From positions 1 to 11,480 of the forward strand of contig JAUNUL010000063.1 in the NCBI GenBank assembly GCA_030538175.1: a DNA stretch of 11,480 bases, in the 5' to 3' direction. The notes beneath the pieces are model-generated. The model searched no databases, was not told the origin of the DNA, and saw only the letters and a program-made list of their open reading frames with translations. Position numbers and translations under genes: made by a program. Origin of the DNA: Propionibacteriaceae bacterium (GTDB lineage Bacteria > Actinomycetota > Actinomycetes > Propionibacteriales > Propionibacteriaceae). Below are positions 1 to 11,480 of this stretch, piece by piece (the first letter of the stretch is position 1; each line of letters begins with the position of its first letter).

Positions 1-962
1 CGGGACACGTCGTTGTTGCCGCCGGACAGGATCGCGACGACCGTTTCGCCCTCGGCGATCTCAAGTTGGTGACCGATCGCGGCCAAGGCGAGCGCACCGG
101 CGGGCTCGGCGATGATGCCGTCGGTCTGATAGAGGTCGAGCATCTCGGAGCAGATCCGTCCCTCCGGGACCGCAACCATCTCGGGCTTGTGGGCTGCCGC
201 GATCGCGTGGGTCAGTTCCCCTGCTCGGCGCACTGCGGCCCCGTCCACGAAGGTATTGATCGAGTCCAGCGTGACCGGCCCTCCGGCCTCGATGGCAGCG
301 GCCAGACAGGGCGCGCCGGCCGGCTCGACCGCGATCACTCGGCATTCTGGGTGGTGGTCGGCAAACCAGGTCAGACAGCCCGACAACATCCCGCCCCCGC
401 CGACCGGGACGACGAGGACGTCGGGAGCCTTCTCGAGTTGGTGCATGATCTCCACCGCGAGAGTGCCCTGGCCCGCGATCGTCCGGGCATCGTCAAACGC
501 CGGCACCATGGTTGCACCGGTTTCCCAGGCCGCTTCATAGGCCGCCTGAGCGGCCTCGTCATAGGTATCGCCGACCACGATGAGGCTGACGTGCTCGCCG
601 CCCAGGTGGCGCATCCGGTCCCGCTTTTGGCGGGGCGTGGTGGTGGGAACATAGATCCGGCCTTGGATGCCGAGTCGGGCACACGCGTACGCCACCCCCT
701 GGCCGTGATTGCCGGCCGAGGCGCAGATGACCCCGGCGTGGCGTTCCTGTTCGGACAGCTGACTGATCAGGTTGTACGCCCCGCGAATTTTGTAGGACCG
801 GACCGGTTGCAGATCCTCGCGCTTGAGCCACACCTTCGCGCCCGTCCGCTCGCTCAACCGTTCGTTGAGCTGCAGAGGGGTTTCGGTGACCACGCCGCGC
901 AGACGGGCGGCGGCCAGGGCGATGTCGGCTGAGGTTATGCGATCCACCGGATCAGTATCCAT
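1..962 (-). CDS. ilvA: Threonine ammonia-lyase (threonine dehydratase), 3' end cut by window edge
   Basis: PLP enzyme converting L-threonine to 2-oxobutanoate and ammonia, normally the first committed step of isoleucine synthesis. The minus-strand frame begins MDTDPVDRITSADIALAAAR at the ATG 962-960 and stays open to the left edge (320 codons seen). Fold-type II landmarks appear in order: VRSYKIRGAYN with the PLP lysine near residue 58, ASAGNHGQG (substrate/PLP loop), the phosphate-binding run PVGGGGMLSG, TFVDGAAVRR, and SGGNND just before the edge. The regulatory ACT-like C-terminus of this family would lie outside the window, so I cannot tell whether it is the isoleucine-feedback form or a shorter catabolic form. 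The gene follows rmuC on the same strand, but a hairpin in the 131-base gap suggests separate transcription. Serine dehydratase activity is a possible alternative; family assignment is firm. Confidence 0.93.
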   Translation of the reverse strand, partial: MDTDPVDRITSADIALAAARLRGVVTETPLQLNERLSERTGAKVWLKREDLQPVRSYKIRGAYNLISQLSEQERHAGVICASAGNHGQGVAYACARLGIQGRIYVPTTTPRQKRDRMRHLGGEHVSLIVVGDTYDEAAQAAYEAAWETGATMVPAFDDARTIAGQGTLAVEIMHQLEKAPDVLVVPVGGGGMLSGCLTWFADHHPECRVIAVEPAGAPCLAAAIEAGGPVTLDSINTFVDGAAVRRAGELTHAIAAAHKPEMVAVPEGRICSEMLDLYQTDGIIAEPAGALALAAIGHQLEIAEGETVVAILSGGNNDVS

Positions 963-1043
963 GCGGGCAGCGGGTCACCGCATCCCGCGTGCCCGACAGC
1001 GGGTGGGTTCAGCAGCCAGGCGTGGCCGTCGAGCGCACCAGGC

Positions 1044-1072
1044 CGGGGTTCGGCGGGAAACCGGGAACCCCG
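1044..1072 (-). terminator. Hairpin downstream of rmuC, probable terminator
   Basis: An 8-bp perfect stem (CGGGGTTC at 1044-1051 with GAACCCCG at 1065-1072) encloses a 13-base loop, 22 bases past the rmuC stop. There is no U-run on either strand, so this is a terminator by position and stem strength only, as is common in high-GC actinobacteria. Confidence 0.5.
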
Positions 1073-1093
1073 CTCTCGTTGCAGCAGCCGCTG

Positions 1094-2683
1094 TCAGGCG
1101 GTGTGGCCCCGGCGCAGCTTTGGCGCGGTCGTCGGCTCCTCGATCAGGTCCAGCAGGTCGGGCTCGCCGCGGGTGAGCTCGGCTCGTTCGGGCAGCTCGG
1201 CGTCCTGCCGGCGGGTCCGACCGATCATCGGCTCGACCTTGGTGGCATCGGCGACCAGCTCGGGGGCGGCGAGGGCGCGGGCTGACTCGACGACAGGCCT
1301 TGGGGTCTCCAGTTCGGCGTCGGTCACCTGCAAGTCACGGAACCTGCGGGCCGCAGGCAGGACTCGGGTCTCGAAGGACCCGACCATCTTGTTATAGGCC
1401 TGCAGCGCCGAGGTCAGCGAACGACCTGTCTTGTCGACGTGTTCACCCATGGTGCCGAGGCGGTCATAGAGCTCGCGGCCCAGTGCGAACACCTCGGCGG
1501 CGCTCTCGGCGAGTGCCGCCTGCTTCCAGCCATAGGACACCGCGCGGAGCAGCGCGATCAGCGTCGCCGGGGTGGCCAGCACGACATCTCGACGCGCCGC
1601 GAACTCGTGCAGGTCGGGGACGATCTCCGACGCCGAGATGAGGAACTGCTCGTTCGGCAGGAATAGCACGGTGAACTCGGGCGTGCCTGCGTCGGCCTTC
1701 CAATATTGCTTCCCCGACAACTGCTCGACATGTGTCTTGACGTTGCGTCCGAAGAGCTTGAGCTTGTCGTCGCGCGTGCGATCATCCTCGGTTTCGTGTG
1801 CCTCGAGGAACGCGCTCAGCGGGACCTTGGCGTCCACGAACACAAACTTGCCATCGGAGAGTTGGACTCGCATGTCAGGGCGGATCGTGCGATCGGCGCT
1901 GGTCTGGGTGGTGGTCTGCAGGTCGAAGTCGCACCGCTCGACCATCCCCGCGTATTCCGCCACGCGGCGCAGCTGGACCTCGCCCCAATGGCCGCGCACC
2001 TGCGGCTTGCGGAGGGCGGTGGCAAGCGCATGGGTCTCCCGACGGAGGTGTTCGCCGGTGTTTTGCACCGTCTTGACGTGGTTGCGGAGGTCGGTCGCCA
2101 TGGCGACCCGCTCCTTCTCGATCTCGGTCAGCCGCGCGGAGAACTGACTCATCAGCGTCGTCAGCGGCTGCAGGGCCTCCTTCGTCTGCGCCAGCCGCTC
2201 GGCGGTGCTCGCGTCCACGGCCTTGCCTTGACGTTCGAGCGTTTCGCTCGACAGGACCTTGAACTGGTTGACCAGGGACTCCCTGTCGGCGGCCAGCTCC
2301 GTCGCGCGCGCGATCGCGCCGTCCCGCTCGGCAACCGCAGCCGCGAGCCGCGCCCCCACTTCGGCTGCCTCGGCTTGGGCCTCGGCGACGGCACTGCGCG
2401 CCTCCGCGGTCGCGGTCTCGCGCTGGGCGAGTTCTGTGGTGAGCCGTGCCGCTTCGCTGCGAGCCTGGGCCGTCTCTGATCGGGCATCGGCGGCCTGGGC
2501 ACGGGCATCCGCCGCCTGTGCCTGAGCCTGCGCCAGCTCGGCTCGGGCTCGCTCGGCCTCTGCATCGCCGCGTGCCGAGGCTGAATCCATGCGTGCACGC
2601 ACCAGCAACCACGTGACCACGCCGCCGAGGGCGAGCCCGATCACGAGGCTGAATCCGAGGATCATCACAGTTGAGGCGTCCAT
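1094..2683 (-). CDS. rmuC: DNA recombination protein RmuC homologue
   Basis: RmuC proteins are membrane-anchored, coiled-coil proteins with a nuclease-like fold. In E. coli rmuC limits inversions at short inverted repeats; its biochemistry is poorly defined. From the ATG at 2683 the protein has 529 residues. It starts with a single membrane segment (STVMILGFSLVIGLALGGVV, about residues 4-23), followed by a long Ala/Glu/Arg-rich coiled coil to about residue 170. The conserved RmuC domain then follows, with GHWGEVQLRRVAEYAGM, FVFVDAKVPLSAF, FTVLFLPNEQFL and LATPATLIALLRAVSYGWKQ. An upstream in-frame ATG at 2770 has a better ribosome site (AAGGA) and would add 29 Pro/Arg-rich residues. I prefer 2683 because it places the membrane anchor at the N-terminus as in the family, but the start is not certain. 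Divergent from the hydrolase gene. Confidence 0.92.
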   Translation of the reverse strand: MDASTVMILGFSLVIGLALGGVVTWLLVRARMDSASARGDAEAERARAELAQAQAQAADARAQAADARSETAQARSEAARLTTELAQRETATAEARSAVAEAQAEAAEVGARLAAAVAERDGAIARATELAADRESLVNQFKVLSSETLERQGKAVDASTAERLAQTKEALQPLTTLMSQFSARLTEIEKERVAMATDLRNHVKTVQNTGEHLRRETHALATALRKPQVRGHWGEVQLRRVAEYAGMVERCDFDLQTTTQTSADRTIRPDMRVQLSDGKFVFVDAKVPLSAFLEAHETEDDRTRDDKLKLFGRNVKTHVEQLSGKQYWKADAGTPEFTVLFLPNEQFLISASEIVPDLHEFAARRDVVLATPATLIALLRAVSYGWKQAALAESAAEVFALGRELYDRLGTMGEHVDKTGRSLTSALQAYNKMVGSFETRVLPAARRFRDLQVTDAELETPRPVVESARALAAPELVADATKVEPMIGRTRRQDAELPERAELTRGEPDLLDLIEEPTTAPKLRRGHTA

Positions 2684-2813
2684 GGCTCCGACTCTGCCGG
2701 AGGGGTCTGACATTTTTCGTTTGCGACGCGCAGGGGGGTGTCCCGGCGGGCTTGGGAAACGAATTCCCATCGGAGTTTGGTCCTTGCCTGCAAAGGGATC
2801 CTGGAATCGGTAG

Positions 2814-2829
2814 CCTGAAAGAATTCAGG
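2814..2829. repeat. Perfect inverted repeat at the hydrolase ribosome-binding region
   Basis: CCTGAA-AGAA-TTCAGG is a perfect 6-bp stem with a 4-base loop, ending 10 bases before the GTG start at 2840. Its right arm overlaps the only good Shine-Dalgarno stretch (AGGGGG, 2827-2832), and its left arm overlaps a possible -10 (TAGCCT, 2811-2816). It could be a repressor operator or an RNA hairpin that masks the ribosome site. Both are inference. Confidence 0.45.
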
Positions 2830-2839
2830 GGGTAATGAG

Positions 2840-3658
2840 GTGGCAACCACAGTGCAGGCCGAAGATTCCATGGTGTCCGTCTATGGACACAAAGTCCGCG
2901 TCTCTGTTCGACCCGCCGAGGGCCAGCCCAGCGGCACCTTGCTGATCGTCAACGGCATCGGCACCCGCCTCGACACGCTCGATGGCCTCGTCGACCATCT
3001 GGATCCCTCAACGGAAGTCATCCGCTTCGATCCCCCAGGCATCGGTGGGTCGAAGTCGTGGGGCATTCCCTACGGCATCCCGATGATGGCCTCTGCCGTG
3101 GCGGCACTGCTGACGAAGCTCGACCGCACCGAGCCGGTGGACGTCCTCGGCTATTCGTGGGGTGGGGTCGTCGCGCAGCAGCTGGCATTGCAGGCACCGC
3201 GTCGCGTGCGCCGACTGGTGCTCCTGTCGAGCAACACCGGGGTCCTGTCGGTGCCCGGCAGCATGCAGTCAATGGCGATGATGTTCAACCCACTCATGGC
3301 GCAGGCATCGCACGGCGACGACAAGGCGATCGGGGAGATCTATGGCGGACTGGCACGGAGCCGCCCCGACGAGGTCCGCGCACTGCTGAAGGCCGACCTG
3401 GAGTCCCATGGTCAGGGCCTCATGCTCCAGCTGATCGCGGCGATGACCTGGACAACACTGCCGATGGCCTGGTTCATCTGGCAGCCTGCCCTGATCCTGG
3501 CCGGGACCGATGACCCCATGGTGCCGCTGGTCAACGCTCGGATCCTCGCCGAGCAGATCCCTGCCGGCAGGCTGCACACGCACGCGGGAGGTCACCTCGA
3601 CGCGCTGCTCGATCCCGGCACCTTTGGGCCCCTGATCTCGAAGTTCCTCCTGAAATAG
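2840..3658 (+). CDS. Alpha/beta hydrolase, medium-chain PHA depolymerase (PhaZ)-like
   Basis: A 272-residue single-domain alpha/beta hydrolase without signal peptide, so probably cytoplasmic. The nucleophile elbow is GYSWGG with Ser106. The likely acid is Asp225 in AGTDDPMVP and the base His252 in AGGHL; the oxyanion segment is NGIGTRLDTL. The pattern NGIG...FDPPGIGGS...DVLGYSWGGVVAQQ...IYGG...TWTTLP...LAGTDDPMVPLVNARIL...GGHL matches, from memory, intracellular medium-chain-length polyhydroxyalkanoate depolymerases. The likely reaction is therefore hydrolysis of a hydroxyacyl polyester or related ester. A generic hydrolase of this branch with another substrate cannot be excluded, and no PHA synthase or phasin gene lies nearby. 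The GTG at 2840 is chosen for AGGGGG seven bases upstream; an ATG at 2870 is an alternative. The gene stands alone, divergent from rmuC and convergent with the metal operon. Confidence 0.8.
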   Translation: MATTVQAEDSMVSVYGHKVRVSVRPAEGQPSGTLLIVNGIGTRLDTLDGLVDHLDPSTEVIRFDPPGIGGSKSWGIPYGIPMMASAVAALLTKLDRTEPVDVLGYSWGGVVAQQLALQAPRRVRRLVLLSSNTGVLSVPGSMQSMAMMFNPLMAQASHGDDKAIGEIYGGLARSRPDEVRALLKADLESHGQGLMLQLIAAMTWTTLPMAWFIWQPALILAGTDDPMVPLVNARILAEQIPAGRLHTHAGGHLDALLDPGTFGPLISKFLLK

Positions 3659-3702
3659 CGCCCATGTGGCCGGCGCCAACACGGCCGTCCCCACATGGCG
3701 CT
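3657..3702. terminator. Bidirectional terminator hairpin between convergent genes
   Basis: AGCGCC-c-ATGTGG (3657-3669) pairs with CCACATGGCGCT (3691-3702): 12 bp with one bulged C. A further inner stem CGGC/GCCG (3671-3674 with 3684-3687) makes one long hairpin. It starts within the stop codon of the hydrolase and ends 15 bases before the stop of the convergent exporter gene, so it can serve both strands. No U-tract is present. Confidence 0.7.
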
Positions 3703-3716
3703 CTGCCTGGTCGGCG

Positions 3717-4658
3717 CTAGTGGTGGACGCCCGGCTCGTGGTGGCGGTGGTTGGGCGGCTCGATCTGGAACGTGGAGTGCTCGATCGGGATCGGGAAGTG
3801 CTCGGCGACGCACCTCTGCAGCGCATCGAGCAGCTTGGGGTTGCAGCCTCGGGTGAAGCACTCCTCCTCGACCACGATGTGTGCGGTCAGGACCGGCAGC
3901 CGGGTCCCAATTCTCGAGACATGCAGGTCGTGGACGCCCATGACGTGGGGTTTGGCTTCGAGGTGCCGGCGTACGTCATCAAGATCCAAACCATCCGGCA
4001 CGGTCTCCATCAACACTGACCCGGCCTCGCGCAGGATTCGCACAGCGCGTGGGGCAATGAGGGCCGCGATCAGGATGCCGGCGATCGCGTCAGCGCGCGT
4101 CCAGCCGGTGAAGAAGATGACGACCGCGCCGATGATGACGGCCACAGAACCCAGCGCGTCGTTGACGACCTCGAGGAATGCCGCGCGCATGTTGAGGTTG
4201 CTGTCGCGGCCACCGACCAGCACAAAGATCGCAATGACGTTGGCGATCAGCCCGATGACGCCCATCGCGAGCATGCCGGAGCCCTCGACGTCAGCGGGAA
4301 TGATGAGCCGGCGTACGCCCTCCACGAACGCGAAGATGCCCACCGCGAGCAGGATCGTCGCCTGGGCGCCGGCGGCGAGGACCTCGATGCGGGCGAACCC
4401 CCAGGTCCGCCGATTGGTCGGTGGACGGGCCATGAGCGTGGCTGCGAAGAGAGCGATGCCGAGGCCTGCGGTGTCGGTGAGCATGTGGGCCGCGTCGACG
4501 AGCAGCGCCAAGCTGCCGGTCACCAGGGCCATGACCACCTCGGCGAGAAACACCGTCGCGGTCAGACCGAAGGCAATCGCGAGTCGCGTCCGATTGGCGC
4601 CCGCGCCGTGGTCGTGGCCGTGGCCATGGTCATGACTGTGCCCGTGATCGTGGCTCAT
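3717..4658 (-). CDS. Cation diffusion facilitator (Zn/Co/Cd-type) efflux transporter
   Basis: A 313-residue CDF family exporter of the ZitB/CzcD type, an inner-membrane metal/proton antiporter pumping Zn2+, Co2+ or similar ions out of the cytosol. The N-terminus is a His-rich tail (MSHDHGHSHDHGHGHDHG). It is followed by six hydrophobic segments (about 25-45, 49-73, 92-116, 128-149, 161-184, 188-206) and a cytoplasmic C-terminal domain ending in another His cluster. The TM2 metal site is DAAHMLTD (His58, Asp62). The TM5 site reads EVVND (Glu163, Asp167) where zinc CDFs usually have HxxxD. The start at 4658 has AGGAAGG upstream, and its ATG overlaps the TGA of the ArsR gene (ATGA), so the two are translationally coupled. 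The metal is inferred, not shown; control by the adjacent repressor is likely. Confidence 0.9.
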   Translation of the reverse strand: MSHDHGHSHDHGHGHDHGAGANRTRLAIAFGLTATVFLAEVVMALVTGSLALLVDAAHMLTDTAGLGIALFAATLMARPPTNRRTWGFARIEVLAAGAQATILLAVGIFAFVEGVRRLIIPADVEGSGMLAMGVIGLIANVIAIFVLVGGRDSNLNMRAAFLEVVNDALGSVAVIIGAVVIFFTGWTRADAIAGILIAALIAPRAVRILREAGSVLMETVPDGLDLDDVRRHLEAKPHVMGVHDLHVSRIGTRLPVLTAHIVVEEECFTRGCNPKLLDALQRCVAEHFPIPIEHSTFQIEPPNHRHHEPGVHH

Positions 4659-4999
4659 TCGTCCGCCTTCCTGTGCCTGGGGGGCATGTGACCGGTCTGC
4701 TCGAGCAGTCCTGTGGCGGCGGCCAACAGGGGCACCGTATGAGCCGGGTGACTGAGAGAGAAAAGAGACGACCTGCCTTCGGGCCGTGACTCCACAAGGC
4801 CGCAGTCCCTCAGCCGTCCGAGATGAGCGCTGACCGTCGACTGGGCGAGTCCGAGGTGTTCGGTGAGCTCGCGCACATTGTGTTCCCCATTGAGGAGGTG
4901 AGCCAGGATGGCGAGACGTCCTGGATCGCCGAGGCTGTGGAACAACTCTGCTGCGCACTCGGGATCGGGGAAATCAGCCTCTGACTCATTCATCGTCAT
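4655..4999 (-). CDS. ArsR/SmtB-family metal-responsive repressor
   Basis: A 114-residue winged-helix protein. The segment CAAELFHSLGDPGRLAILAH is the ArsR signature; the recognition helix is LAQSTVSAHLGRLRDCGLVE (about 51-70), with the wing at SRPEGRSSLFSL. No cysteine is present in the alpha-3 position used by arsenic or cadmium sensors. The C-terminal helix instead offers His84, His87, Glu100, His104 and His109, compatible with an alpha-5-type Zn/Co/Ni sensor. That choice is inference from residue type only. It heads a two-gene operon with the CDF exporter (overlapping ATGA), the usual repressor-exporter arrangement in which metal releases the repressor. The start at 4999 lacks a Shine-Dalgarno site, but a -10 hexamer lies six bases upstream, so it looks leaderless. 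A second ATG two codons later (4993) is an alternative. Confidence 0.9.
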   Translation of the reverse strand: MTMNESEADFPDPECAAELFHSLGDPGRLAILAHLLNGEHNVRELTEHLGLAQSTVSAHLGRLRDCGLVESRPEGRSSLFSLSHPAHTVPLLAAATGLLEQTGHMPPRHRKADE

Positions 5000-5016
5000 A
5001 TGGCGATGATAGCCAT
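4997..5016 (-). promoter_or_regulatory. Leaderless promoter and candidate operator of the ArsR-CDF operon
   Basis: On the minus strand TATCAT (5011-5006) fits a TANNNT -10 element, six bases before the ATG at 4999; the -35 is weak. On the plus strand the 17 bases 5000-5016 (ATGGCGATGATAGCCAT) form a near-palindrome: ATGGC/GCCAT arms and an inner AT/AT pair, with one mismatched pair. It covers the -10 and abuts the start codon, the place expected for an autoregulating ArsR repressor to block transcription. Confidence 0.55.
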
Positions 5017-5097
5017 GAGTAGCGTTTTCGGCCAGGGTGTGAACTGGGTTGCTGTGAAGGGGTGCGAGTTGTCGGTCGGCGGTGGTTGGATAGCCCC

Positions 5098-6393
5098 ATG
5101 CCTCACGCCGAAGCTCCCCACCACGTTGCCGACTTCGCCGCCTTCATCCAGGCTGCGCCGAGTTCCTATCACGCAGCCGCCGAGGTCGCGCGATTGTTGG
5201 CTGAGGCAGGCTGGACGGAACAGGACGAGACGGCGGAGTGGGACGCAAGCCCGGGTGGGCACTACCTGATTCGCGATGGCGCGATCATGGCGTGGCGGGT
5301 CCCTGCCAGCGCCGGCCCGCAGTCCGCTTTCCGGATCGTCGGGTCGCACACCGACTCGCCCGGATTCAAGCTCAAGCCGGACCCGACCTATGGCGCCGCC
5401 GGCTGGCAGCAGGTCGGCGTGGAAATCTATGGCGGACCGCTGCTCGGGTCGTGGACTGACCGGGAGTTGGGCATTGCCGGTCGTGTCGTCACGCCCAAGG
5501 GTGAGCAGATCCTGGTCTCCACCGATGCCGTCATGCGGATACCGCAACTCGCGATCCACCTCAACCGCAGCGTCAACGAAGAAGGACTGAAGCTCGACCG
5601 GCAGACCCATTTGCAGCCGATCTTCTCAGTCCGCCGACCTGACCTGCGGGTGCTCGACCTCGTCATGTCCTTCGTCGAGCACGACGACGGGGGAGAGCTC
5701 ACTGCCGATGACGTGGCTGGCCACGACCTGTTCGCGTTCGATACCGCCCGGCCCAAGCTGTTCGGTGCCGACGACGAGTTCCTCGCCTGCACCAAGATCG
5801 ACAACCTGAGCTCGGTGCACTCCTCGGTGATCGCACTGCTCAACGTCGACGACACAGCCGGCGACATCGCCGTCATGGCGGCCTTCGACCACGAGGAAGT
5901 CGGATCGAACTCCCGCTCCGGGGCCAGCGGGCCACTGCTGGAGGACGTGCTGTGGCGCACGGCCAACGCGCTCGGTGCGAACCAGGAGCAATACCGCCAG
6001 ATGCTGCAGCGCTCCTCGTGCATCTCCGCCGACGCAGGGCATGCGGTGCACCCGAACTATGTCGGCTCGCACGATCCGGTCAACCGACCGCTGATCAACG
6101 AAGGCCCCCTGCTGAAGATCAATGCCAATCAGCGGTATGCCTCCGACGCCGTCGGTGAAACGATGTGGCGTCGGGCGTGTGCGGTCGCGGGCGTGCCGAC
6201 CCAGACGTTCGTGTCCAACAACGCCATCCCGTGCGGCTCGACGATCGGCCCGCTCACGGCCACACGGCTCGGCATCACGACGGTCGATGTCGGCGTACCC
6301 GTCCTGGGGATGCACTCCGCCCGCGAGATGTGCGGTGTCGATGACCTCTATCACCTGACGCGCGCGCTGTTGGCGTACTGGTCCGGCGCCTAG
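5098..6393 (+). CDS. apeB: M18 family (aspartyl-type) aminopeptidase
   Basis: A 431-residue cytosolic metallo-aminopeptidase of family M18, which removes N-terminal residues, often acidic ones, from peptides using two metal ions. All expected site residues are visible: His84 in GSHTDSPGFKLKP, bridging Asp235 in CTKIDNLSSVHSS, the catalytic and ligand glutamates 266-267 in DHEEVGSNSRSGA, Asp312 in SADAGHAVHPNY, and His406 in GMHSAREMCGVDD. Length is normal for the family. The ATG at 5098 (MPHAEAPHHVADF) is chosen because the longer frame from 5062 adds twelve unconserved residues. No strong Shine-Dalgarno site is seen. The gene is divergent from the ArsR-CDF operon and is followed by a hairpin terminator. 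The symbol apeB/pepC-type is used by homology; substrate preference is not shown by sequence. Confidence 0.93.
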   Translation: MPHAEAPHHVADFAAFIQAAPSSYHAAAEVARLLAEAGWTEQDETAEWDASPGGHYLIRDGAIMAWRVPASAGPQSAFRIVGSHTDSPGFKLKPDPTYGAAGWQQVGVEIYGGPLLGSWTDRELGIAGRVVTPKGEQILVSTDAVMRIPQLAIHLNRSVNEEGLKLDRQTHLQPIFSVRRPDLRVLDLVMSFVEHDDGGELTADDVAGHDLFAFDTARPKLFGADDEFLACTKIDNLSSVHSSVIALLNVDDTAGDIAVMAAFDHEEVGSNSRSGASGPLLEDVLWRTANALGANQEQYRQMLQRSSCISADAGHAVHPNYVGSHDPVNRPLINEGPLLKINANQRYASDAVGETMWRRACAVAGVPTQTFVSNNAIPCGSTIGPLTATRLGITTVDVGVPVLGMHSAREMCGVDDLYHLTRALLAYWSGA

Positions 6394-6404
6394 AAACCCG
6401 CTTG

Positions 6405-6431
6405 CGCGCCCATCCGGAGGCGCGAGATTTT
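6405..6431 (+). terminator. Rho-independent-like terminator after the M18 gene
   Basis: CGCGCC (6405-6410) pairs with GGCGCG (6419-6424) around an 8-base loop and is followed by AGATTTT. It starts 12 bases after the aminopeptidase stop, just before the next start codon, so the acetyltransferase probably has its own or a read-through promoter. Confidence 0.55.
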
Positions 6432-6437
6432 GGGGGC

Positions 6438-7511
6438 ATGGATTCCGGGTTGCGGGTGAGCGTTCATGCATCGTTGGGCACGGCGGAGGCGCCGTCTCGG
6501 GCGGCCGAGGAAGCTGCACGGGTCTGGTCGGCGGACGAGCGTGCGGAGCTGGGCCATGACGACTTCGCCTATTCGGCCCGGGAGTTGGCAGCGACGTACG
6601 CCGACCAGTCCCGCCAGCGGCGGGTGATGGTCCTCGCACATGAGGGCGATCGGTGTGTAGGTCTGGCGAGCGTGGAGCTTCCGCTGACGGATAACCAGCA
6701 CATGATCTCGCTGGAGTTCCGGTTGGATCCGCAGTGCGAGGCGGCGACGCTGCTGGATGCATTGTGGGTCGGGGTGCTGGAGGCCGGTGCAGGGGAAAGC
6801 CGTGACACGGTGGTGAGTTGGACTCCCTCCAGCCGCTTGGTCAACGACGGGCTGCGGCCGAAAACGGGTGCGGGACTGCTCCGGCGTACGGACGCGAACG
6901 AGTGGTTCGTCGCGCGCGGGTTCGAACTCGAGCAAGTCGAGGTGGCCAGCACCCTGCAGGTCACCGAGGCGCTCGGCCGTGCGGCGGAGCTCGAAACCAC
7001 GGCGGCTGCCTCTGGGGAGGGGTACGAGCTAATTAGCTGGCTCGGACCGACGCCGCCGGAACTCCTGGACTCAATGGCTGCCCAGCGGGCGGCGATGAGC
7101 ACGGACGTGCCGCTCGGAGAGATCGCTATGGAGCCGGAGATCTGGGACGCCGCGCGGGTTCAGGGCGACGAGTCGGTCGAGCTTGCGATGGGCCGGCTGA
7201 TGGTCTGGACGATCGCGGTGGAGCGGTCGAGCGGTGAGGTGGTGGCGCACACGCTGCTGAAATGTCCGGATCTGGACCGGCCGGAGGTGGCATACCAGGA
7301 GGACACGCTGGTCCGCGCCGACCATCGCGGGCACCGCCTCGGGATGCGGGTGAAGGCCGCCAACTTGCGTCAACTCGCCGCAGAGCGACCCGGTGTGCGC
7401 CGGATTCACACGTGGAATGCCGATGAGAACGCGTGGATGCTCGCGATCAACCGCGATCTCGGGTTCACGGCGACGTCGACGATGGGTTGCTGGCAGCTGG
7501 TGCGCCGGTGA
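6438..7511 (+). CDS. Two-domain GNAT acetyltransferase
   Basis: A 357-residue protein with two GCN5-related N-acetyltransferase folds in tandem. The N-terminal half (about 1-165) is degenerate, ending in the GNAT-like ANEWFVARGFE. The C-terminal half (about 205-357) carries a clear acetyl-CoA loop, TLVRADHRGHRLGMRVKAAN (about 290-309). It continues with RIHTWNADENAWMLAINRDLGF, the usual N-x-x-M...LGF ending of the fold. The architecture recalls mycothiol synthase MshD and antibiotic-type tandem GNATs of actinobacteria, but the sequence is not MshD as I know it, so the substrate is unknown. The ATG at 6438 has only GGGGG very close by, and a stronger GGAGG lies 17 bases off; a TTG at 6402 is less likely because it would lie in the terminator. 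It is same-strand with ychF downstream but separated by 158 bases. Confidence 0.8.
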   Translation: MDSGLRVSVHASLGTAEAPSRAAEEAARVWSADERAELGHDDFAYSARELAATYADQSRQRRVMVLAHEGDRCVGLASVELPLTDNQHMISLEFRLDPQCEAATLLDALWVGVLEAGAGESRDTVVSWTPSSRLVNDGLRPKTGAGLLRRTDANEWFVARGFELEQVEVASTLQVTEALGRAAELETTAAASGEGYELISWLGPTPPELLDSMAAQRAAMSTDVPLGEIAMEPEIWDAARVQGDESVELAMGRLMVWTIAVERSSGEVVAHTLLKCPDLDRPEVAYQEDTLVRADHRGHRLGMRVKAANLRQLAAERPGVRRIHTWNADENAWMLAINRDLGFTATSTMGCWQLVRR

Positions 7512-7522
7512 CGGCGGATTTC

Positions 7523-7621
7523 CGCAACAAATCTGCGTCGACTTGAGATAGTGCGTTGTGTTCGTCCTTGTCACGGCGTTTTGCTCCCTGCGGCGGGGCG
7601 GGTCGACGCAGAATTTTTGCG
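7523..7621. repeat. Pair of 20-bp imperfect inverted repeats in the GNAT-ychF gap
   Basis: The arms CGCAACAAATCTGCGTCGAC (7523-7542) and, read on the minus strand, CGCAAAAATTCTGCGTCGAC (7621-7602) agree at 18 of 20 positions. They are separated by 59 bases with no coding frame I can support. This could be a small non-autonomous element, an interspersed intergenic repeat, or a long hairpin in the leader of ychF. A short GCGG-ATTT-CCGC hairpin (7514-7525) overlaps the left arm. Confidence 0.6.
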
Positions 7622-7669
7622 TTCGGTCACGGTGCCCGGCTGTCGCCAAGCCCAGTAAGGTGGGCCAGC

Positions 7670-8743
7670 GTGGCACTCACCATCGGAATCGTCGGCCTTC
7701 CCAACGCCGGCAAGTCGACCCTGTTCAATGCGCTGACCCGCAACAACGTGCTCGCCGCGAACTATCCGTTCGCGACGATCGAGCCCAATGTTGGCGTGGT
7801 GGGCGTCCCCGAGCCTCGCTTGGCGAAGCTTGCCGAGATCTATGGCTCGCAGGCACAGCTGCCGGCGACCGTGTCGTTTGTTGACATCGCAGGCATCGTG
7901 AAGGGCGCCTCGCAGGGCGAGGGCATGGGCAATGCCTTCCTCGCAAATATCCGAGAGGCGGACGCGATCTGTCAGGTTACGCGCGTCTTCCGCGATCCCG
8001 ACGTGACGCACGTTGACGGTGAGGTCAACCCGTCCAGCGACATCGAGACGATCACCACCGAGCTGATCCTCGCCGACATTCAAACCCTGGAGAAGGCGAT
8101 CCCGCGCATGGAGAAGGAAGCGCGGATCAAGAAGGAGTCCCAGCCGAAGCTTGCCGCGTGGCAGGGGGCACTTGAAGTGCTGAACTCCGGCAAGGGCGTG
8201 CATGCGGCCGGGCTGGATCTGGAGCATCTGCGCGAGCTGTTCCTGTTGACCGCGAAGCCGTTCATCTATGTGTTCAACTGCGACACCGACGAGCTCGCCG
8301 ATGAGGATCTGAAGGCGCGGATGCGTGAGGTGGTCGCGCCGGCGGAGGCCATCTTCCTGGATGCCAAGATCGAGGCCGAGCTGTCGGAGATGGAGCCCGA
8401 GGACGCCAAGGAGTTCCTGGCCGAAATGGGCATCGACGAGCCGGGTCTGGATGTGCTGGCGCGGGTGGGGTACGACACGCTGGGGTTGCAGTCCTACCTG
8501 ACCGCCGGTCCGAAGGAAGCCCGCGCATGGACCATCCCCAAGGGAGCGACCGCACCCGAGGCCGCGGGGGTCATTCACACGGATTTCCAGAAGGGGTTCA
8601 TCAAAGCCCAGGTCGTGTCGTTCGATGACCTCGTCGCCGCAGGTTCGGAGCAGGCTGCGAAGGCTGCGGGGAAAGTGCGCCTCGAGGGCAAGGACTACGT
8701 CATGGCCGATGGGGACGTCGTCGAGTTCAGGTTTAACGTCTAA
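7670..8743 (+). CDS. ychF: Redox/ribosome-associated Obg-like ATPase YchF
   Basis: A 357-residue universally conserved P-loop protein (OLA1/YchF), which binds ribosomes and prefers ATP to GTP. The order is: Walker A GLPNAGKST near residues 9-17, a switch region with YPFATIEPNVGVV, the G3 motif VDIAGIVKGASQGEGMGN, and an alpha-helical coiled-coil insertion around residues 130-200. The G4 region is FNCDTDE in place of the GTP-specifying NKxD, as expected for YchF. The C-terminal TGS domain contains HTDFQKGFIKAQVVSFDDLV and ends DGDVVEFRFNV. The GTG at 7670 is chosen because VALTIGIVGLPN is the family N-terminus and AAGG lies nine bases upstream; the longer frame from 7556 would read through the inverted repeat. 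The stop codon overlaps possible operator half-sites of the following toxin-antitoxin locus. Confidence 0.96.
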   Translation: MALTIGIVGLPNAGKSTLFNALTRNNVLAANYPFATIEPNVGVVGVPEPRLAKLAEIYGSQAQLPATVSFVDIAGIVKGASQGEGMGNAFLANIREADAICQVTRVFRDPDVTHVDGEVNPSSDIETITTELILADIQTLEKAIPRMEKEARIKKESQPKLAAWQGALEVLNSGKGVHAAGLDLEHLRELFLLTAKPFIYVFNCDTDELADEDLKARMREVVAPAEAIFLDAKIEAELSEMEPEDAKEFLAEMGIDEPGLDVLARVGYDTLGLQSYLTAGPKEARAWTIPKGATAPEAAGVIHTDFQKGFIKAQVVSFDDLVAAGSEQAAKAAGKVRLEGKDYVMADGDVVEFRFNV

Positions 8744-8783
8744 CGTTATTGACGCGTCTCGTTATGTCGCCTAGGCTGGTCGT
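8734..8783 (+). promoter_or_regulatory. Promoter and candidate operator of the higBA locus
   Basis: TTGACG (8749-8754), a 17-base spacer and TAGGCT (8772-8777) make a good housekeeping-type promoter, with the predicted start at or next to the GTG at 8784, so the transcript would be leaderless. Around the -35 are four copies of one half-site: TAACG at 8734 and 8741, and CGTTA at 8744 and 8760 (the middle two form TAACGTTA). The palindrome GACGCGTC lies at 8751-8758. These are plausible binding sites for the HigA antitoxin, which normally represses its own operon. Confidence 0.6.
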
Positions 8784-8958
8784 GTGATCAGATCCTTCGC
8801 TGACTGCGACACGGAACGTGTCTGGCTGCGAGAGTCTGTTCCCCGTCTGGACCCGCGAATCCATCGCGTGGCCAATCGCAAGCTGCACATGCTTGATGCT
8901 GCGACCGCTCTGGACTGATGGTGGCCCCGAGGACGTGCTGATCGAGGACTATCACTGA
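8784..8958 (+). pseudogene. higB: HigB-type toxin (RelE superfamily), internally deleted
   Basis: The frame from GTG 8784 reads VIRSFADCDTERVWLRES, continues to ...RVANRKLHMLDAATALD and stops at 8916-8918 after 44 residues. This matches the N-terminal half of HigB/RelE-like mRNA interferases, whose usual length is about 92 residues. The C-terminal end of the same family, TDGGPEDVLIEDYH, follows at once in the +1 frame (8914-8955, stop 8956-8958). The missing middle, roughly 35 residues by comparison with the family as I remember it, holds the central strands with the catalytic and substrate-binding residues. The loss is consistent with a deletion between short repeats at TGGAC (8911-8915). 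The toxin should therefore be inactive. Promoter and the downstream antitoxin ribosome site remain in place. Confidence 0.85.
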
Positions 8959-8967
8959 GGAGGCATG

Positions 8968-9267
8968 ATGACTGAGAAGCTGTACCCGCCCATCCATCCC
9001 GGCGAGATCCTGATGGAGGATTTCATCGAGCCCTTAGGGATCACCCAGCACAAGCTGTCAGTGTCCATCGGGGTGCCACCGCGCCGGATCAACGAGATCG
9101 TGCATGGCAAGCGTGCGATCACCGCTGACACTGCACTACGCCTGGGCAAGTACTTCGGTATCGATGCCCAGTTCTGGCTGAACCTGCAGTCCCGCTACGA
9201 GATCGAGTTGGCGCAGGATCGTGTCGCCGACGAGATCGCCGCCATCAAGCCGCTTCAGATGGCCTGA
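8968..9267 (+). CDS. higA: HigA-family antitoxin (XRE-type DNA-binding protein), orphaned
   Basis: A 99-residue HigA/VapI-type antitoxin. The conserved N-terminus YPPIHPGEILMEDFIEPLGI is followed by a helix-turn-helix (TQHKLSVSIGVPPRRINEIV, about 26-45), HGKRAITADTALRLGKYFG and the family ending FWLNLQSRYEIELA. It would normally bind HigB and repress the shared promoter. AGGAGG at 8958-8963 starts in the stop codon of the toxin remnant. The second of two consecutive ATGs (8968) has the better spacing; 8965 would add one methionine. All family landmarks are intact although the toxin gene is broken, so it may survive as a regulator or as an anti-toxin against a related toxin elsewhere (inference). 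Its last 13 bases overlap the 3' end of the convergent pseudogene. Confidence 0.9.
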   Translation: MTEKLYPPIHPGEILMEDFIEPLGITQHKLSVSIGVPPRRINEIVHGKRAITADTALRLGKYFGIDAQFWLNLQSRYEIELAQDRVADEIAAIKPLQMA

Positions 9268-9636
9268 GGTAGCGGGTCGCCGAACTGTCCCGGGCCTGAG
9301 GTCAGGGAGAAACTGCCGTCTTTGTGGGCCTTTGGACGCAGGAAAACCTGCACGTTGCCCTTCTCCAGCGGGAACGCGACATGCAGTCGACCCATGTTCC
9401 GGCGACAGGGATCCGGCGGAGATGGGGGCATCCAGCCACGCGTGTTCGCCTCCCAGATCGATTGGACGGCCCACCGTACGCCACCAGAGGCGGGTCGCCG
9501 GGTCGAGGAGCCGGAGCATGCCGTCAAACCTGTCCCTCAGGTTGCCCGCACGCATCGGGTTGCGGTAGGCGTGAAGGATCTCATCCTCGGTGAGCCCGTC
9601 CCCAAGCGCGGACTGCGCGACGATGGGCTCTTTCAC
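9255..9636 (-). pseudogene. Frameshifted, apparently chimeric gene remnant
   Basis: From a GTG at 9636 with GGAGAGG just upstream, the frame reads VKEPIVAQSALGDGLTEDEI then LHAYRNPMRAGNL. This resembles the start of a small actinobacterial family (BrnT/DUF4258-like in appearance, as I recall) with the motif HAYRNPIR. The following RDRFDGMLRLLDPATRLWWR and TVGRPIDLGGEHAWLDAPIS look like a different, longer protein. At about 9400-9440 the sensible reading changes frame to NMGRLHVAFPLEKGNVQVFL, RPKAHKDGSFSLTSGPGQFG, which ends in DPLPQAI at 9255 inside the 3' end of higA. The truncated end, the frame change and the mismatched N-terminus together suggest a decayed fusion of two genes. I do not recognise the second family and assign no function. 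Confidence 0.6.
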
Positions 9637-9652
9637 CTCTCCACGTTACCTT

Positions 9653-9671
9653 CCCTGTTTGCTCTACAGGG
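9653..9671. other. Short hairpin upstream of the retron-like RNA
   Basis: CCCTGT (9653-9658) pairs perfectly with ACAGGG (9666-9671) around a 7-base loop. It lies between the divergent pseudogene start and the predicted RNA start. It has no clear U-tract, so it may be a transcription block from upstream or an operator. Confidence 0.3.
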
Positions 9672-9694
9672 TGGGCTACCTGCCGCTGGCTGGG

Positions 9695-9707
9695 TACGCT
9701 GACTGCG
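9695..9707 (+). promoter_or_regulatory. Candidate -10 element for the retron-like RNA
   Basis: TACGCT (9695-9700) fits TANNNT and would place the transcription start at about 9706-9708, exactly where the left arm of the predicted closing stem begins. No convincing -35 is visible (TGGGCT at 9672-9677 at a 17-base spacing is poor). Confidence 0.35.
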
Positions 9708-9848
9708 GCGGCCGGGACGAGACAGCCGACCCTGTCGGTGGATCCGAGGTTCCCTCGGGCAGTTGATCAATGCCAGCCATCCGGCGCATGTCGGTCAGTG
9801 CGCTCCGCGCACCTGCCGACCCGCACAGCGGAGAGTCGTGCCGGCCGC
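9708..9848 (+). ncRNA. Predicted retron-like msr-msd RNA
   Basis: Just upstream of the reverse transcriptase gene, GCGGCCGGGACGA (9708-9720) pairs with TCGTGCCGGCCGC (9836-9848) at 12 of 13 positions, plus a flanking G-U pair, like the a1/a2 arms of a retron RNA. Inside, in order, are a 6-bp stem-loop (9725-9739, loop CCT), a 7-bp stem-loop (9743-9759, loop TTC) and a weaker TTGATCAA-centred hairpin (9759-9773). One long hairpin follows at 9786-9824: GC, GTCGGT and GTGCGC pair with GCGCAC, GCCGAC and GC, with two symmetric 2x2 internal loops and a TCC tip. The two short stem-loops fit an msr and the long hairpin an msd. G9721, immediately after the left arm, is the natural candidate for the branching guanosine. 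This was folded by eye; no covariation was tested. Confidence 0.6.
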
Positions 9849-9924
9849 TCTTGTCGTTCGTTCGATAGGCGTTGCTCGGCGCTGTGTTCGTCGGCGCAGG
9901 GTCCGTCCAGTGCAGGGAGAGTCA

Positions 9925-11240
9925 GTGGCACCCGATCCGGTCGCTCGCACGCTGGCACTGGCGCTTCTCGAGACCGACTGGTCGGAGCCCCAGCTTCGGT
10001 CCGCAGCCAAGTCCGTGTTGCCGGAGTGGCCTCACCGCGCGCTCTGGACCCATCGGATCGTCCGAGCGCTCCTCGGGACCTACCCACGACCGCACGGACT
10101 TCGCCCGCGAGCCCTTGCCTCCGAACTGGTCACCTTGACCGCCTTCGACGAGGCACGCGGGCGTTGTCGTGGAGCCGGTATCACGTGGAAACCGGCGCGG
10201 CTCGTCCTCGCGCAGCCGTCGATGGCGCCGCGCGCTTGGCAGGTTCCCGTTCTTCCTGACGAGGCGGCCGTCAGTGCATGGCTGCGGCTGCCCGCGGGCG
10301 AACTCGCCTGGCTCGCCGACAACCAACACCGGCATCGGCGCCACCCCGAGGGGCCACTGGTCCCTTATGCGCCACCTGGGCCCCCAGACGTGTCGGGCCG
10401 CCTCGGCTCATCGAGGCGCCCAACTCATTGCTCAAACGGATCCAGCGCCGAATCGCGAGCCTGCCCCGCGAACTCGGGGCGCACGAGGCGGCGTACGGCT
10501 TCGTTCGCGGCCGCAGCGCGATCGATCACGCGCGGCTCCATGTCGGCCAGCGACGCGTACTGACCGTCGACCTGCGTGACTTCTGCACCCACATCACCGC
10601 GCGCCGCCTCTTCGGGCTGCTGATCACGGCCGGCTACGCGGAAGGGGTGGCGTACCTCATCGCAGGTCTGTCCACGACCGCCACCTCGATCGCGGTGCTG
10701 TCCCGAATGCCGGCGGGCGGTCGGGTCGAGGATCGGTACGCCCAGCGCGCCCGACTTCGCGAGGCGCACCTGCCGCAGGGCTCGCCCAGCTCGCCCGCCT
10801 GGTCCAACGCCGTGTGTTTCTCGCTCGACCGCAGGCTGACCGGACTCGCCGCAAGCCTGGGTGCGACCTACAGTCGGTACGCCGACGACCTCACCTTCTC
10901 CGGCGACCGCGTCCCAAGGCTCGACCTCGTGGCAGCGATCGTCACCGAGGAAGGGTTCGCCCTCAACCCGGGCAAGTCACGCAACCTCGGCCGGGGCCGC
11001 CGCCAACAGGTCACTGGCGTTGTGGTGAATGATCGCCCGAACGCGCCGCGTGACGAATACGAGCGGCTGCGAGCCATCCTCCATGACGCCGATCGGAACG
11101 GTGCCCAGCACGCCAACCGTGCGGGCGTACCCGATTTCGCCGCCCATTTGGCGGGCCGGATCAACTGGGTACGCCAGCTCAATCCCGAGCGCGGCCGCAG
11201 GCTCGCCGAGGCGTACGCTCGGATCGACTTCACCAGCTGA
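9925..11240 (+). pseudogene. Retron-type reverse transcriptase with N-terminal extension, one apparent frameshift
   Basis: Reconstructed across one frame change, the gene encodes about 437 residues. Residues 1-148 come from the frame starting at GTG 9925 (AGGGAG five bases upstream): VAPDPVARTLALALLETDWS ... WKPARLVLAQPSMAPRAWQV ... AVSAWLRLPAGELAWLADNQ ... EGPLVPY. This is a helical N-terminal extension that I recall from myxobacterial-type and other retron-like RTs. At about 10368-10376 the sensible reading moves back one base to ATWAPRRVGPPRLIEAP and continues into the catalytic domain. A lost base, an extra pair of bases or a sequence error would all explain this; I see no classical slippery heptamer in the right register. 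The gene starts 76 bases after the predicted structured RNA, which would be template and primer for its msDNA. Truncated or split RT is the alternative if translation restarts internally. Confidence 0.75.
10278..11240 (+). CDS. Reverse transcriptase catalytic domain as an uninterrupted frame
   Basis: This frame from ATG 10278 (320 codons) holds the whole RT palm and fingers; its first 30 residues are probably out-of-frame noise. Motifs in order: RLIEAPNSLLKRIQRRIA (motif 1), YGFVRGRSAIDHARLH (motif 2, with HARLH where retron RTs often show NAxxH), VLTVDLRDFCTHI (motif 3; first catalytic Asp at 10569-10571), HLPQGSPSSPAWSNAVCFSL (motif 4), YSRYADDLTFSG (motif 5; YADD at 10878-10889), GFALNPGKSRNL (motif 6) and QQVTGVVVND (motif 7, the VTG seen in retron RTs). 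All catalytic aspartates are present, so the domain could be active if made. There is no maturase, endonuclease or integrase domain, which argues against a group II intron. A diversity-generating or Abi-type RT is less likely given the VTG motif and the upstream RNA. Confidence 0.85.
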   Translation: MAAAARGRTRLARRQPTPASAPPRGATGPLCATWAPRRVGPPRLIEAPNSLLKRIQRRIASLPRELGAHEAAYGFVRGRSAIDHARLHVGQRRVLTVDLRDFCTHITARRLFGLLITAGYAEGVAYLIAGLSTTATSIAVLSRMPAGGRVEDRYAQRARLREAHLPQGSPSSPAWSNAVCFSLDRRLTGLAASLGATYSRYADDLTFSGDRVPRLDLVAAIVTEEGFALNPGKSRNLGRGRRQQVTGVVVNDRPNAPRDEYERLRAILHDADRNGAQHANRAGVPDFAAHLAGRINWVRQLNPERGRRLAEAYARIDFTS

Positions 11241-11256
11241 CGAGCGGAGCAAACCC

Positions 11257-11480
11257 ATGAGCCCTTCACCCACCGGACATCTGGTCGGCTCAGATCTGGT
11301 CTTCACTCGCACGATCGCAGCCCCTGTTGCCGAGGTCTGGTCCAGACTCGCCGAATCCGACCGACTCGACACGTGGATCGGGCGCTTTGAGGGCGATCCG
11401 GCCTCTGGAGAAGTGGACTTCTTCATGACCGCCGAAGGTGAGGGTCCGGCGGCCAAGGTGAAGATCAACGCCTGTGAGCC
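11257..11480 (+). CDS. SRPBCC/AHSA1-like domain protein, cut by window edge
   Basis: Only the first 74 residues are in the window. MSPSPTGHLVGSDLVFTRTI then AAPVAEVWSRLAESDRLDTW IGRFEGDPASGEVDFFMTAE fits the start of the Bet v1-like SRPBCC superfamily, in particular AHSA1-type proteins: strand one, the PVAEVW helix, and the D.LDTWIG turn followed by two strands. Such proteins bind hydrophobic ligands in a cavity, and many actinobacterial ones have no known substrate. The ATG at 11257 has CGGAG seven bases upstream. Only 16 bases separate it from the RT stop, so read-through from the RT is likely, but the gene does not resemble any retron effector I know. Genes following it, outside the window, would help decide. 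Confidence 0.75.
   Translation, partial: MSPSPTGHLVGSDLVFTRTIAAPVAEVWSRLAESDRLDTWIGRFEGDPASGEVDFFMTAEGEGPAAKVKINACE

Follow-up and report, generated by a model that had tools for sequence, protein, structure and literature searches.

A structured RNA and an N-terminally extended reverse transcriptase form a probable retron in Propionibacteriaceae

The locus

Near the right end of an 11,480-nucleotide stretch of DNA (contig JAUNUL010000063.1, positions 1 to 11,480, of the Propionibacteriaceae assembly GCA_030538175.1; hereafter the window), a promoter box, a structured RNA and a reverse transcriptase (RT) gene, frame-broken in this copy, follow one another on the forward strand (Table 1). We read this unit as a retron of the PADLOC branch RT_other/RT_outgroup, made up of an msr-msd RNA with a promoter box and an RT with an N-terminal extension, and put the probability of this reading at about 0.88. 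The window belongs to a draft assembly (553 contigs, 87.8% complete, 5.1% contamination). Its genome falls in one genus with genome G072, whose RT protein, P0002, is that of Ammonicoccus fulvus, and comparison of the window with the A. fulvus locus gave one matching block, 9695-11480, running from the promoter box to the window end.

Table 1. Features of the retron-like unit and the gene behind it (positions in the window)
Feature	Position	Strand	Basis
-10 hexamer TACGCT of the RNA's own putative promoter	9695..9700	+	TANNNT at equivalent site in 21/30 sequences
Structured RNA (msr-msd candidate)	9702..9855	+	Covariance models: R1 84.5 bits (window in training set), leave-out R2 53.6 bits, E 5e-7
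Left outer arm a1	9707..9720	+	Fold; consensus helix 1
Candidate priming (branching) guanosine	9721	+	In conserved CGAG 9718-9721; priming role inferred
Stem-loop 1: 6 bp, 3-base loop CCU	9725..9739	+	Fold; outside 30-sequence consensus
Stem-loop 2: 7 bp, 3-base loop UUC	9743..9759	+	Consensus helix 2, 94.8% of cells paired
Long hairpin: 6+6 bp, internal loop, loop UCC; presumed msd core (cDNA template)	9790..9820	+	Helices 3, 4
Small hairpin predicted for window sequence	9821..9831	+	Fold; not in consensus
Right outer arm a2	9836..9849	+	Fold; consensus helix 1
5' part of retron RT gene, frame 1: N-terminal helical module, RT core start	9925..10370 (end approximate)	+	P0002 residues 4-158 matched over 9934-10398
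Interval with one-base RT frame break	10341..10398	+	Two frames overlap there on intact P0002; PADLOC model positions 187/190 abut
3' part of retron RT gene, frame 3, YADD and VTG	10370..11240 (start approximate)	+	PF00078 3.7e-13; RT_other 3.8e-114
AHSA1-type gene, truncated by contig end; probably not part of the retron	11257..11480	+	81% identity over 74 residues to A. fulvus protein

A conserved RNA precedes the RT

Retron RNAs have complementary 5' and 3' arms, one to three msr stem-loops and a long msd hairpin, and lie upstream of the RT (PMC6868368). The window RNA fits this layout 5' of its RT. Folding joins the outer arms (9707-9720 and 9836-9849) through 13 pairs with a single G.G mismatch, and the RNA from 9707 to 9849 reaches a minimum free energy of -78.4 kcal/mol (z = -3.06), with equal folding in none of 200 shuffles. 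The first unpaired base past the left arm is G9721, the last base of the CGAG at 9718-9721. Within this motif, which differs from the commonest one, TAGC, G9719 is invariant and the other three bases are conserved at 90% or more in an alignment of 30 sequences.

That alignment, comprising the window and 29 relatives (from the window's family, eight other families and Cryobacterium), revealed strong covariation. RNAalifold gave 32 consensus pairs, which were of standard type in 93.1% of 956 cells compared to 75.7% in shuffles. There were 168 double changes, where shuffles gave 49.7 and slid controls no more than 46, and 26 of the 32 pairs had at least one. Because the complementary arms were used to choose the RNA ends, helix 1 is favoured by selection; helices 2 to 4 are free of that bias. 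Three pairs in helix 2 and one in helix 3 are invariant and hence uninformative. Helices 3 and 4 of the long hairpin are paired in 94.3 and 96.1% of cells, with double changes in 11 of their 13 pairs. Stem-loop 1 is too variable across the set to enter the consensus. The window RNA is identical to that of A. fulvus at 142 of 150 aligned positions, and the linker between RNA and RT at 20 of 74; of the four-fold degenerate sites in the two parts of the RT gene, 30 of 69 and 84 of 161 are identical (43-52%).

The RNA is apparently transcribed from the base of the left arm, since a TANNNT box sits just upstream in most sequences: 21 of 30 have one 6-14 nucleotides ahead of the aligned RNA start, eight have none there and one has it farther off. 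Four equal-width windows farther upstream contained 0, 1, 0 and 0 such boxes among the 30 sequences, and shuffled sequences a mean of 0.81 (maximum 5). A preliminary description of this DNA had proposed a -10 hexamer that would start transcription at the left arm, a branching G immediately after that arm and, ahead of the RT, a retron layout in which outer arms enclose one long hairpin and two stem-loops with 3-base loops. Folding and covariation agree with the layout and with the position of the G, and the hexamer recurs in place; the transcription start and the priming role of the G are read by likeness to studied retrons.

A covariance model trained without the window and without A. fulvus (R2) recovered the window at 53.6 bits (E 5e-7) and A. 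fulvus at 65.4 bits, as well as two loci outside the training set at 143.1 (G208) and 82.7 bits (G544). Across 195 family genomes it matched 13, at one place each: the 12 genomes in which a protein search of 198 family genomes had found the RT, and G116. In G116 (locus L177, 9482-9665, minus strand), the RNA is kept beside an RT remnant in which tblastn similarity begins at about residue 228 and is spread over two frames. This is the second locus, after the window, at which the RT has decayed and the RNA persists. Co-occurrence of RNA and RT gave a Fisher p of 3e-18, with the two near-equal genome sets treated as one and G116 scored RT-negative. On plasmids outside the training set (L191, L192, L193 and L194), too, the RT is immediately preceded by the RNA, in Tsukamurella (81.6 bits), Dietzia (79.4), Burkholderia cenocepacia (50.4) and B. 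pyrrocinia (47.2). As these plasmids belong to Tsukamurella, Dietzia and Burkholderia, the RNA-RT pair crosses phyla. Rfam 15 returned no match for the RNA at the thresholds used. Thus, by conservation, covariation and leave-out detection, the structured RNA is real, its pairing with the RT is supported by computation, and the unit combines a retron-like RNA with a retron RT.

The RT belongs to the retron lineage

RT_other is the top PADLOC model for the 3' part of the window gene (380 bits) and for seven relatives (475-550 bits), with RT_outgroup also in the lead. RT_XIII ranks third in the seven relatives, at 285-307 bits and aligned from residue 94-109 only, and was the best whole-length model in none of them. 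By sequence, the nearest solved proteins in the PDB are Ec86 and Ec67. In an AlphaFold model of P0002 (97 sequences; predicted local distance difference test score, pLDDT, 94.6), retron RTs fill ranks 1-14 of the 50 rows of the fold comparison. The motif RYADD occurs in all 97 relatives, and region X ([H/N/G/R]AxxH) in 95 of 97, reading HARLH in the window. Region Y is VTG in the window and in 41 of the 97 relatives, VCG in 27, LCG in 20 and something else in nine; VTG is found in 47% of retron RTs (PMC4244168). The YADD and VTG motifs noted earlier for this RT are thus both present in the 3' part. By PADLOC, PDB sequence and fold comparison, the RT is of the retron lineage.

Ahead of the RT core, the P0002 model has an addition of five helices (residues 5-83) and a linker. 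In 13 of the 14 best rows the alignment with a solved retron RT begins at model residue 97-111, and in the remaining one at 146, so the addition measures about 100 residues; the extension suggested before holds, but not its length of about 150. The module alone gave no confident fold match, and no Pfam match below E 0.12 among 20 members. Its conserved residues are largely hydrophobic or proline, plus R60, E63 and D59, and we infer that it serves in binding or dimerisation, not in catalysis.

The window gene is not one open frame but has a break of one base within 10341-10398, absent from the preliminary description: frame 1 is read from 9925 to about 10370 and frame 3 onward to 11240. RT relatives P0002, P0005 and P0006 are intact. 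Against A. fulvus, the ratio of nonsynonymous to synonymous substitution rates (dN/dS) is 0.17 (NG86) or 0.22 (YN00) for the 5' part and 0.13 (NG86) or 0.05 (YN00) for the 3' part, values by which both parts are under purifying selection. The break is either recent or an assembly error; if it is real, the window genome probably makes no full RT, and with a frame-broken gene the window copy may be non-functional. RT decay may not be rare in this branch. Loci L049, L056 and L057 have an RT match with one stop inside, and L058 has the C-terminal part only.

Neighbouring genes and spread

We surveyed neighbours at the window, at a Cryobacterium locus and at 19 loci of 16.7-20 kb (21 in all), calling open reading frames (ORFs) by a simple rule. 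RTs clustered across 20 of the 21, followed by an ABC ATPase-like gene in six and a response regulator-like gene in four; no gene besides the RT occurred in more than six. Eleven of the 19 nearest downstream ORFs lie on the opposite strand, and ten of these 19 neighbours fell into ten kinds by Pfam, including a histidyl-tRNA synthetase, an iron-sulphur protein, IspD, a HAD hydrolase and a methyltransferase. Since no neighbour recurs widely, no linked effector is seen, consistent with the earlier statement that no known effector gene stands beside the RT. A linked or fused effector of the typed defence retrons (I-XIII) was found neither at the 21 loci, nor among the ten Pfam-scanned neighbours, nor in the N-terminal module, which leaves the unit outside those types.

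The AHSA1-type gene that begins 16 bases past the RT, absent from the preliminary description, holds the same position in A. fulvus, where its protein matches PF08327 at 2.9e-12. Upstream of the unit, the window carries a HigBA-like pair (8785-9267, plus strand) whose second gene has an HTH_3 domain and whose toxin half, as read from the frame and without family call, is apparently shortened internally. Overlapping short ORFs on the minus strand (9255-9640) resemble a decayed gene and include a 166-residue frame without Pfam match. A Guanidine-III riboswitch lies at L018 (3167-3232, minus strand), about 350 bases 3' of the RT of Microlunatus capsulatus (G090).

Searches at E 1e-30 in the family, 1e-40 in the order and 1e-60 in the class and phylum found the RT in 12 of 198, 39 of 391, 14 of 394 and 5 of 396 genomes, respectively; these genome sets overlap. 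For the Burkholderia RT, at least 7791 of 7998 candidates matched, and the named ones among the best 120 are nearly all Burkholderia or Paraburkholderia. Vertical descent is suggested by downstream genes common to nine of the 20 g33 loci; two g17 loci (L016 and L018) likewise have their own downstream genes in common. Movement is suggested too, because the window and A. fulvus hold the unit at different sites: window 7700-8731 matches G072 at 3.09 Mb, while the G072 RT lies at 2.23 Mb.

Possible roles and rival explanations

Judging from studied retrons, the RNA would be transcribed from the box at 9695-9700, and the 2'-OH of G9721 would prime complementary DNA (cDNA). The C-terminal region of the Eco1 RT binds an 8-base-pair (bp) stem with a 3-base loop (PMC6868368); by analogy, the same region here may grip stem-loop 2, which has a 3-base loop, as a handle. 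The long hairpin would be copied inward from the right arm to roughly 9770, and RNase H would leave RNA-linked multicopy single-stranded DNA (msDNA) of about 65 nucleotides. The mode of action that we consider most likely is that the particle of RT and msDNA works together with a partner whose gene lies at another chromosomal site, the N-terminal helical module serving as docking surface. A defence role is likely, and this mode of action is a tentative proposal that we hold at somewhat under even odds.

In the absence of a linked effector, three roles remain: a partner in trans, the module as effector, and a function other than defence. We favour the first weakly. A non-defence role, in which a domesticated and partly vertically inherited element makes an RT-msDNA particle for regulation or housekeeping, is less probable. 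It would suit the shared downstream genes of the g33 loci and of L016 and L018, the reported vertical inheritance of myxobacterial retrons (PMC6868368), and retrons without linked effectors for which other roles are considered possible (PMC8867640). It fits poorly with the patchy occurrence in family and order, RT decay in G116 and the window, the differing sites in the window and A. fulvus, and carriage on plasmids. The idea that the module itself is the effector, inhibited by msDNA like the fused TOPRIM, TIR or protease domains of other single-gene retrons, is unlikely, even though nothing else recurs widely near the RT and residues 1-140 of P0115 are found with an RT domain in 118 of the best 120 of 484 matches (the other two are short and without precomputed domain).

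For the AHSA1-type gene as effector or accessory protein, one can cite its closeness to the RT, the block 9695-11480, in which the window and A. fulvus have it in common along with the RNA and the RT, and a dN/dS of 0.12 (NG86, 74 codons). We nevertheless consider this improbable: the gene adjoins the RT only in the window and A. fulvus and in no cluster of three or more loci, and of the 26 family genomes (among 197) that carry a relative, 21 lack the retron RT, while in three further RT genomes (G090, G094 and G095) the relative is not linked to the RT. Very improbable is a DRT-type or group II-like RT beside an unrelated structured RNA. All four relatives scanned gave weak Drt2 and group II matches, at 30.5-34 bits against a cut-off of 390 for NCBIfam Drt2 and 31-48 against 300 for group II, both below the 132-172 bits of the retron models Ec67_fus, St85_RT and TIR. 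The latter scores are likewise under their cut-offs (450, 235 and 600), yet above those of Drt2 and group II; retron RTs rank first in the fold comparison, and the RNA has a retron layout.

Several points weigh against the retron reading and the role we favour. Retron identity is read here from sequence and predicted structure, and NCBIfam retron families matched only under their cut-offs. The first residue of region X is His in 75 of the 97 relatives and Asn in only 10; the Asn of NAXXH is missing in 2 of 16 validated retrons (PMC6868368), and the motif is retained in 62% of retron RTs (PMC4244168). One of five plasmid loci, in Methylobacterium, gave no RNA match, and the frame break is known from one draft assembly only. 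The partner in trans was deduced from absence, with neighbours called by a simple ORF rule, and PADLOC on 98 neighbours reported mad3 (4), AriA (4), mad8 (3), mad2 (2) and ATPase-Toprim (1), no model exceeding four.

It is possible, at odds slightly below those of the partner in trans, that a large retron lineage of Actinomycetota and Burkholderia has no dedicated effector, and that its RT-msDNA, through the N-terminal module, guards or regulates an unlinked host protein. The whole system would then consist of a single RNA and a single protein; among the first retrons, many were reported with no components but RNA and RT (PMC6868368). A conserved RNA with a promoter box is tied to this RT lineage, which has no linked effector in view and occurs in named species such as Ammonicoccus fulvus and Microlunatus capsulatus, and through the RNA-RT lineage the function of effector-less retrons becomes directly testable. 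In addition, RT-RNA pairs from high-GC Gram-positives are on offer for single-stranded DNA production.

Comparison with known systems

Neither the RT branch nor retrons in actinobacteria are new, since PADLOC already covers the branch and a review cites putative retrons of actinobacteria (PMC6868368). The preliminary description called the branch poorly studied in actinobacteria; no study of the branch was found in the literature searched, while the review does cite such retrons. Other retrons, too, have been reported with no obvious effector (PMC8867640, PMC12548924). Neither the literature searched, with the main survey outside it, nor Rfam 15 described the RNA family, its promoter box or strict pairing with the RT.

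The closest likeness is to PADLOC RT_other (PDLC02949) and RT_outgroup (PDLC03740, described as retron), which match over the whole length, N-terminal addition included (P0002 3-437 on model positions 68-471, 1.1e-142); their names convey no effector, RNA or mechanism. The type XIII retron RT (RT_XIII), the next-best model, also has a long part ahead of the RT core, but scores 290 against 475 bits for P0002, and because its alignment begins at residue 94-109 its N-terminal module is unlike that of the branch. Retron-Eco1 (Ec86) and Retron-Eco2 (Ec67) differ in that the unit here has no linked or C-terminal effector in view, carries the extra N-terminal module and has relatives mostly with His for Asn in region X. 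Retron-Bth1 is alike in having an unclassified retron RT and no obvious effector, and differs in belonging to Bacillus and having its RT interrupted by a group II intron (PMC12548924). The myxobacterial retrons Mxa1/Mx162, Mxa2, Sau1 and Nex2 resemble the unit in their extended RT N-terminus and vertical inheritance (PMC6868368); they and Retron-Bth1 are likened to it by description.
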